Source: Desulfotignum sp. (GTDB lineage Bacteria > Desulfobacterota > Desulfobacteria > Desulfobacterales > Desulfobacteraceae). Taken from it: a DNA stretch of 64,000 nucleotides. The position numbers and the translations under genes were made by a program. The stretch spans positions 224,839-288,838 of the forward strand of contig JAABSA010000001.1 in NCBI GenBank assembly GCA_011390635.1, written 5' to 3'. The first letter of the stretch is position 1. The number at the start of each line of letters is the position of its first letter. The notes below the pieces were generated by a model. It saw only the letters and a program-made list of their open reading frames with translations, was not told the origin of the DNA and made no database searches. This document shows positions 56,908 through 59,825 of the stretch, piece by piece.

Positions 56908-58305
56908 CTAAAATTTTCCTGATTCAATCTTTTTTGACAGATACTGCACCTGTTCAAACAGAATACCTTTCTGCTGCAGTTCTTTTTCCACGGCATTCAC
57001 CGAATAAATGGCGGTGGCATGGTAGCGCTTGAAGCTGGAACCAATTTTCTTGATGGGCTGGTCTGTATATTTTCTGGATAAAAATATGGCCACCTGGCGG
57101 GGTTTGACAATGCGTTTTTTCCGGGATTTGGAGACAAGGTCCTGCTCGGTTACGGCATATTCTTTACACACCAGTTTTTTGATCACATCAATGGTGATAC
57201 GTTTTTGATGTTTGCGGATATTGGCCAGCACACTTTTTGCCAGTTCAATATCAATATTGCACCCGAGAAGCTGACCTTTGGCTGCCACACCAAACAACCC
57301 GCTTTCCAGCTGCCTGACATCATCGCACAATTCCTGGGCAATGTATTCAGTGACCTGGGTGGGAATAATGCAATCCAGGTGTTTTGATTTCTGTCTGAGA
57401 ATTTTCACCCGTGTTGTAAAATCCGGCACCTGAATTTCGGTTACCAGACCCATGGTCAGGCGGGACCGCAGCTGGTCATCCATTTTGGGGATATCATCCG
57501 GAAGGTCGCAGCCTGAAAAAATAATTTTCCGGTCAGCATTCAGCAGATAATCAAGGGTAATGGCCAGTTCTTTCTGGATGGCCTGCTTTCCGGATAAAAA
57601 ATGGATATCTTCTAAAATCAGCATCTCGCATTTCTTGCGGTATTTTTCCTTGAATGTATCAATGGTATTATTTTTCAAAGCATAAATCATTTCATTGGTA
57701 AAATCCTCGGCTGTTACATAATACACCCGCAATGCACTTTGTTTGGTGATCACATGATGCCCCACAGCCTGGGAAAGATGGCTTTTGCCAAGACCGGTTT
57801 TGCCCAAAAGATACAAAATACCCGCACCGTTCATTTTTCCCTGGGCCAGAGACAGGGAAGCGGAATAGGCAAAACTGGAATTGTCCCCCACCACAAAATC
57901 ATCAAAGGTGTAGCCTTTTTTCAGCATCCTGCCGCTGCTGAAGCACCGACCGAATCCGGGCAATGAAGCCTGAATCGGATGTTTTATTTCGGATTGTAAA
58001 ACCCTTGCAGCCAATACGCCATCAGGATCTTTTTTGGGAATTTCTTGTGTTGTAAAGGTAATGTGTACCGGGTGCCCGAGTTTTTTGAATTCTGTTTCAA
58101 ACAATGCCTGGTAATTTTCCTTCAACCGTCTGACAAAAAACGCATTGGGTGTAGACAGACTGATGCAGCCATCTTTATATTCCAGAAGGTCAAGGGGATC
58201 TATCCACATCCTGTAGCTGTGATCAGGGATTGTTTTTTTGATTTGAGATTTAACCTGTGCCCAGAATCCGTCCATGGTTTTCAACAAGCAGACCTTTCTT
58301 TTCAC
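56908..58305 (-). CDS. dnaA: DnaA-family replication initiator with divergent domain IV signature
   Basis: YTFDDFVVGDNSSFAYSASLSLAQ, LLGKTGLGKSHLSQAVGHHV, LILEDIHFLSGKQAIQKEL, PRQVAIFLSRKYTDQPIKKIGSSFKRYHATAIYSV. Confidence 0.9.
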   Translation of the reverse strand: MKRKVCLLKTMDGFWAQVKSQIKKTIPDHSYRMWIDPLDLLEYKDGCISLSTPNAFFVRRLKENYQALFETEFKKLGHPVHITFTTQEIPKKDPDGVLAARVLQSEIKHPIQASLPGFGRCFSSGRMLKKGYTFDDFVVGDNSSFAYSASLSLAQGKMNGAGILYLLGKTGLGKSHLSQAVGHHVITKQSALRVYYVTAEDFTNEMIYALKNNTIDTFKEKYRKKCEMLILEDIHFLSGKQAIQKELAITLDYLLNADRKIIFSGCDLPDDIPKMDDQLRSRLTMGLVTEIQVPDFTTRVKILRQKSKHLDCIIPTQVTEYIAQELCDDVRQLESGLFGVAAKGQLLGCNIDIELAKSVLANIRKHQKRITIDVIKKLVCKEYAVTEQDLVSKSRKKRIVKPRQVAIFLSRKYTDQPIKKIGSSFKRYHATAIYSVNAVEKELQQKGILFEQVQYLSKKIESGKF

Positions 58306-58600
58306 ATAAAAATTGGAATTATTATCAATGGTGCCAAGTTAGCGTGATACTCAGCGAATACGAGCAGACCCAAAAAAAGTATGTGTTTTTCTATGCGAAT
58401 ATCCATTCCTGGTCAAACCGGATCATTCGTGTTAGGAAAAGATGAGCATTTTGTTTGGCACAATTATTCAACACATTGAAATTGCAGTATTTTTTTTGTG
58501 AAACAGGAATTTTTTCAAAAATTACAGTCACTTCCCCAAGTTCTTATTTTTGTAGGAAATTTCATTGATTCACCTGTTATACAAATCTGATTAGAAAAAA

Positions 58601-58654
58601 TTTTTCTTTGTTTTTCTTTGTTTTTCTTTGTTTTTTGTCAATTTAGACAAAAAA
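58601..58654. repeat. AT-rich tandem repeat and inverted repeat upstream of dnaA and pdxA
   Basis: TTTTTCTTTG x3 (58601-58630) followed by TTTTTTGTC-AATTTA-GACAAAAAA (58631-58654). Confidence 0.9.
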
Positions 58655-58759
58655 CAGGAATTTTTTTTTGTTCTATCATACCAATGGTTTCACAATTTAT
58701 CAGGTCCCATAATATTTACAATCCCCACCCGCAATAGTATATTGTTTTCTTTTAACCAA

Positions 58760-59825
<1,066 letters not shown>

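Follow-up and report, generated by a model that had tools for sequence, protein, structure and literature searches.

The 64,000-nucleotide stretch of the Desulfotignum sp. genome analysed here (the window) carries dnaA, which is separated from the divergent pdxA by an intergenic region (58306–58770) holding two inverted TGTTTCACA/TTGTGAAAC elements that are found family-wide (Table 1). The dnaA open reading frame is intact and opens with GTG; the ATG at residue 11 (window position 58275) probably corresponds to the start used by its homologues. DnaA_N, Bac_DnaA and Bac_DnaA_C (domains I, III and IV) all score above the Pfam cut-offs, and the protein reaches 382.7 bits against the TIGR00362 DnaA equivalog model (cut-off 343.9). 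Its closest named relatives belong to Desulfotignum, followed by Desulfospira, Desulfobacula and Desulfobacter. In an AlphaFold2 model (mean pLDDT 80.9), for which 8btg, the basal-unwinding complex of B. subtilis DnaA, is the best-matching PDB entry, the helix-turn-helix is kept: helices are predicted in domain IV at residues 397–413, 418–424 and 429–444, and the last of these, the recognition helix, begins at the conserved His.

Table 1 Features of dnaA and of the dnaA–pdxA intergenic region (window coordinates)
Feature	Coordinates	Strand	Basis
dnaA, 465 aa, predicted sole chromosomal initiator	56908..58305	-	Single PF00308 match in 4.09 Mb genome; Pfam, TIGR00362
Walker A GKTGLGKS, residues 168–175, order-wide T→S variant	57781..57804	-	Alignment to E. 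coli
Domain IV (Bac_DnaA_C), residues 372–439, DNA-binding domain	56989..57192	-	Pfam; predicted helices
Altered recognition motif FKRYHATAI, residues 425–433	57007..57033	-	Alignment: corresponds to E. coli FGGRDHTTV
Probable dnaA promoter TTGACC-17-TAGAAA, conserved in family alignment	58388..58416	-	Consensus match only, read from sequence
TGTTTCACA element, dnaA–pdxA intergenic, conserved family-wide, not an origin-type DnaA box	58497..58505	-	k-mer search, family comparison
GTTTCACAA element, inverted partner of the 58497–58505 element, ~190 bp apart	58687..58695	+	k-mer search, family comparison

A preliminary description of this gene had left two options, the main initiator of a lineage with an altered origin code or a second DnaA paralogue, of which the first is supported. 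A profile search of the whole Desulfotignum sp. genome returned one PF00308 and one PF08299 match above cut-off and no canonical GGRDHTT-type dnaA elsewhere. At a genome completeness of 96.4% a missed gene is conceivable, but the idea that the window protein is a second or decaying paralogue of a canonical DnaA encoded elsewhere is contradicted by the single copy in the single-contig relatives G019, G029, G033 and G034; the AAA+ essentials are also intact, and we give this idea practically no weight. Exactly one full DnaA was found in each of 56 of the 58 relatives. Because the motif change is order-wide rather than a local oddity, the sequence data support the window DnaA as the main, ordinary, single replication initiator and not a stray paralogue. 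Some other members of the phylum carry two DnaA genes with different motifs (L153/L154 in G069 and L155/L156 in G072), for example FNRDHST and LGGKDHST within one genome.

The window protein does not have a GGRDHTT-type recognition motif. Relative to E. coli FGGRDHTTV, its FKRYHATAI lacks G430 and shows G431→K, D433→Y, T435→A and V437→A, in agreement with the earlier reading of a motif one residue shorter, with KRY in place of GGRD and Ala in place of the first T of HTT; P423 of the recognition segment is also changed, to K/Q. Alignment of domain IV revealed the shortened motif in every Desulfobacterales DnaA aligned, usually as F-[KN]-[RK]-[YQ]-H-[AGT]-T, with Tyr at position 433 in 102 of 106 sequences, Ala at 435 in 103 of 106, and R399, H434 and T436 retained. 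Elsewhere in the phylum, well-scoring DnaAs carry GG[KR]DH[ST]T, and further shortened motifs, such as FNRDHST, FSRKHSS and FRRHHSS, occur in other lineages. Judged from these alignments, the shortened motif is order-wide and old. The slightly atypical AAA+ core that had been pointed out (GKTGLGKSHL, LEDIHFLSGK) is likewise present and order-wide, with E. coli T179 replaced by Ser in 109 of 112 sequences and D235 by Glu in 108 of 111. Equivalents of K178, R285 and R334 (Walker A Lys, arginine finger and sensor 2) are present in the window DnaA and kept, or nearly so, across the order. Within the family, the Walker B D235→E and Walker A T179→S differences from E. coli are general, most DnaAs have Q in place of box VII R281 and many have A in place of B-motif R245.

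No cluster of the canonical DnaA box was found upstream of dnaA. To compare GC skew, dnaN was located in eight genomes. In Desulfotignum sp. the skew changes at dnaN from −0.035 on the left to +0.062 on the right, and the same negative-to-positive change occurs at dnaN in six relatives (G007, G019, G020, G029, G033 and G044). Skew sampling in G019 alone was too noisy. The G034 record begins at dnaN and has positive skew on both sides with no local sign change; its cumulative skew peaks at a distance of ~2.1–2.3 Mb, which agrees with an origin close to dnaN. Parallel inspection of parS-like sites and ParB genes gave no convergence on one place. In G019, G029, G033 and G034, dnaA is 1.5–2.5 Mb away from dnaN/oriC, in the direction of the chromosome half that holds the terminus; for the 5.2 Mb G034 the dnaA–dnaN distance was measured as 2.66 Mb. 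The chromosome origin is thus likely to lie upstream of dnaN and not at dnaA, with a predicted position at ~77,700–77,998 of contig C11 (G000) in Desulfotignum sp.

This location bears on the first candidate from k-mer counting, TGTTTCACA, which was dropped as an origin DnaA box because the origin was located at dnaN, where it has 0 sites. The TGTTTCACA/TTGTGAAAC pair is unique in the Desulfotignum sp. genome. That the lineage's DnaA box might be this conserved inverted pair upstream of dnaA gains from its strong family-wide enrichment there (32 versus 0.4 expected) and its resemblance to TNCACA, but besides its lack of sites at the dnaN-upstream origin the pair is not at the skew switch, is missing from dnaA-upstream DNA in other families that share this DnaA motif and resembles a parS half-site (family sites TGTTTCACATGAAACA), making such a role highly improbable.

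Unbiased k-mer counting of dnaN-upstream DNA, followed by one-mismatch spectra, pointed to a different word. Enriched k-mers were TTTTGAACA (19 versus 1.2 expected) and TTTTAAACA (23 versus 2.0). Across the 32 family dnaN-upstream regions, TTWTNAACA (hereafter A6, for the base at position 6) occurs 72 times against 6.6 expected, whereas the canonical TTWTNCACA (C6) is not enriched (2 versus 2.8 expected); in the family dnaA–pdxA region A6 is not enriched either (12 versus 11.1 expected). Other families of the order gave 19 versus 3.1 expected for A6 and 1 versus 1.2 for C6. In the family spectrum, position 6 is A in 72 boxes, C in 2, G in 5 and T in 6; the preceding base is G in 50 of 72, position 3 is T or A, position 5 is mostly G or A, and a pyrimidine mostly follows the box. 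The predicted origin, which carries TTWTNAACA rather than TTWTNCACA, supports the non-canonical box suggested in the preliminary description.

In Desulfotignum sp., the dnaN-upstream region consists of boxes of the type GTTTTRAACAY, then CCCC, then DnaA-trio-like repeats, in the order GTTTTGAACAT (inverted), CTTTTGAACAC, ATTTTCAACAC, then GTTTTAAACA-TATCAACA-CCCC-TTATTGTTATTATTATT and AT-rich DNA. The five boxes within ~150 bp are the densest cluster within the genome DNA examined, and the only tandem-box-plus-trio match in the genome (C11:77847–77870) lies 128 bp before dnaN. Tandem boxes, a GC-rich spacer and a trinucleotide repeat make up the architecture of the basal unwinding system (PMC8287927); counting TTWTNAACA as a box, GTTTTAAACATATCAACACCCCTTATTGTTATTATTATT has tandem boxes, a short GC-rich spacer and at least three DnaA-trios, and it sits at the GC-skew switch. 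Another origin protein might instead bind the TTTTRAACA sites upstream of dnaN, DnaA having its boxes elsewhere, since the box is unlike every experimentally known DnaA box found. The order of box, box, GC-rich spacer and trio is nevertheless that of the DnaA system, and it matches outgroup origins except that the first box has A6 where theirs has C6, so we consider a different binding protein very unlikely.

Many genera within the family share the origin core. Its tandem-box-plus-trio pattern was detected in 42 of 76 family genomes and in 11 of the 314 genomes from the rest of the order, compared with 2 of 390 for the reversed control. Genera g2, g3 and g6 have no boxes adjoining dnaN: in g2 the pattern occurs at a locus away from dnaN, surrounded by 8–12 A6 and 0 C6 boxes, most of these A6 boxes lying outside the search pattern itself, and in g6 (Desulfobacter) the pattern search mostly found no origin. 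In the single-contig genome G034 (C1; L240 and L356) the origin core is present three times: at 5197070 and 5197696, where it is duplicated in tandem immediately before dnaN, and at 5190340.

As outgroups we used genomes with a GG[KR]DH DnaA. Upstream of dnaA these have 31 C6 boxes versus 1.8 expected, with TTATCCACA dominant, and 12 A6 boxes versus 2.3; downstream of dnaA they have 31 A6 versus 3.4 expected and 25 C6 versus 1.6. The A6:C6 ratio is 72:2 in the family and 43:56 in the outgroups (Fisher p ~1e-15, which overstates independence because the sites and genomes are related). Another 19 phylum genomes, mostly with other short motifs, showed no evident origin upstream of dnaA or dnaN and are uninformative on covariation because their origins were not located. 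At outgroup origins A6 is often the trio-proximal second box beside C6 boxes, an arrangement that lends some weight to the view that the Desulfobacterales DnaA still binds canonical TTATNCACA best, TTWTNAACA sites being weak boxes of the basal-unwinding type and the domain IV changes neutral drift. Against this view, C6 is enriched neither at family origins nor around relocated origins, and the Desulfotignum sp. genome has no tandem C6 pair, a search for direct TTATNCACA pairs 0–30 bp apart having found none anywhere. Residues 433 and 435 are, moreover, almost invariant in their new state, so the changes there are not drift; we regard continued preference for the canonical box as unlikely. According to the preliminary description, a motif that proved common and bound TTATNCACA normally would speak against an altered box: the motif is indeed common within the order, but the order's origin is without TTATNCACA.

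The motif change, the single gene copy, the skew switch, the box enrichment and the origin architecture are read directly from the sequences. The explanation we favour, at a probability of about 0.76, is a lineage-wide DnaA-box variant, C to A at position 6, that accompanies the changed DnaA recognition segment, with the origin upstream of dnaN. The lineage box would be 5′-(G)TTTTRAACA(Y)-3′, in which TTWTNAACA replaces TTWTNCACA and a purine is preferred at position 5; a TTTTGAACA-like word would take the place of the textbook TTATCCACA, and DnaA would prefer GTTTTGAACA over TTATCCACA. We suggest that the major-groove recognition segment was altered by a turn one residue shorter, D433→Y, T435→A and P423→K/Q, and the box altered with it, and that DnaA opens the dnaN-upstream origin by the usual basal unwinding, using the tandem boxes TTTTAAACA and ATATCAACA, a C4 spacer and the trio-like TTATTGTTATTATTATT. 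E. coli DnaA uses helix 434–451 to read TnCACA from the major groove and R399 to read TTA from the minor groove, and its T435M and R399A variants no longer bind the box (PMC5742627). The kept R399 (minor groove, 5′ TTA half) and H434/T436 would fit a box whose 5′ half and final ACA have stayed the same, and the loss of D433 and T435 with R399 retained would match a change at position 6 with the 5′ half intact. We infer that DnaA binds TTWTNAACA boxes; it may also reject C6 boxes, and Y433/A435 may be the cause of the box change.

The outgroup counts suggest how such a change could have arisen. Because A6 is enriched at outgroup origins, often in the trio-proximal position, tolerance of A6 appears older than the motif change, and on these counts the lineage-specific part is the loss of C6. 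The likeliest path would be that A6 was tolerated first, since outgroups whose DnaA is normal already have it in the second, trio-proximal box, that C6 boxes were lost later and that DnaA then specialised. Covariation of motif and box is, from the genomes compared, essentially one evolutionary shift, and residue-to-base causation is therefore inseparable from ancestry. A stricter version, in which Desulfobacterales have a mutually exclusive box code that requires A6 and rejects C6 through D433Y, T435A and the loop deletion, so that initiator and origin would work largely independently of the E. coli type as an orthogonal pair, falls just short of an even chance.

A search of the open-access literature returned no account of an oriC from Desulfobacterales or of a TTWTNAACA-type box. 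We take the palindrome TGTTTCACGTGAAACA to be the parS consensus of ParB, so that a word derived from it, 'TGTTTCACG', may not be a DnaA box. This word was proposed as the DnaA box of Bradyrhizobiaceae (PMC2275245). The Desulfobacterales system shares with the canonical DnaA/TTATNCACA oriC of E. coli and B. subtilis the domain order, the AAA+ motifs, R399, H434, T436 and the arrangement of tandem boxes and DnaA-trios (PMC8287927), and differs from it in the shorter turn, D433Y, T435A and P423K/Q, in A rather than C at box position 6 and in an oriC that adjoins dnaN with dnaA far away. Like Thermotoga maritima DnaA, it combines a shortened motif (FNRSHPVVV in T. maritima, aligned here) with a lineage-specific box; the T. 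maritima 9-mer ACCTACCAC diverges throughout (PMC10316083), whereas the Desulfobacterales box differs only at position 6 and in its position 5 preference. Epsilonproteobacterial DnaA, with the core TTCAC, also shows a lineage-wide box shift, attributed to changes in helix 5, but its box has an invariant T at position 5 and retains C6 (PMC5043019), and D433-H434 is kept in the protein, whereas Desulfobacterales have lost both C6 and D433. Bdellovibrio, formerly grouped with the deltaproteobacteria, has a characterised oriC with the canonical box NN(A/T)TCCACA, unlike that of Desulfobacterales (PMC5124646). The same study lists box residues 4 and 6–9 among those that distant bacteria have in common (PMC5124646); the predicted Desulfobacterales box departs from this rule at position 6.

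These results offer a concrete, cheaply testable case of initiator–origin co-divergence, in which a few residues are set against one box base, and provide a large sulphate-reducing order with a predicted oriC and a consensus for its box. In Desulfobacterales, software built on the assumption of TTATCCACA next to dnaA would search in the wrong place and for the wrong word, and the predicted origin and box may therefore be relevant to origin annotation and to replicating plasmids for anaerobic sulphate reducers.
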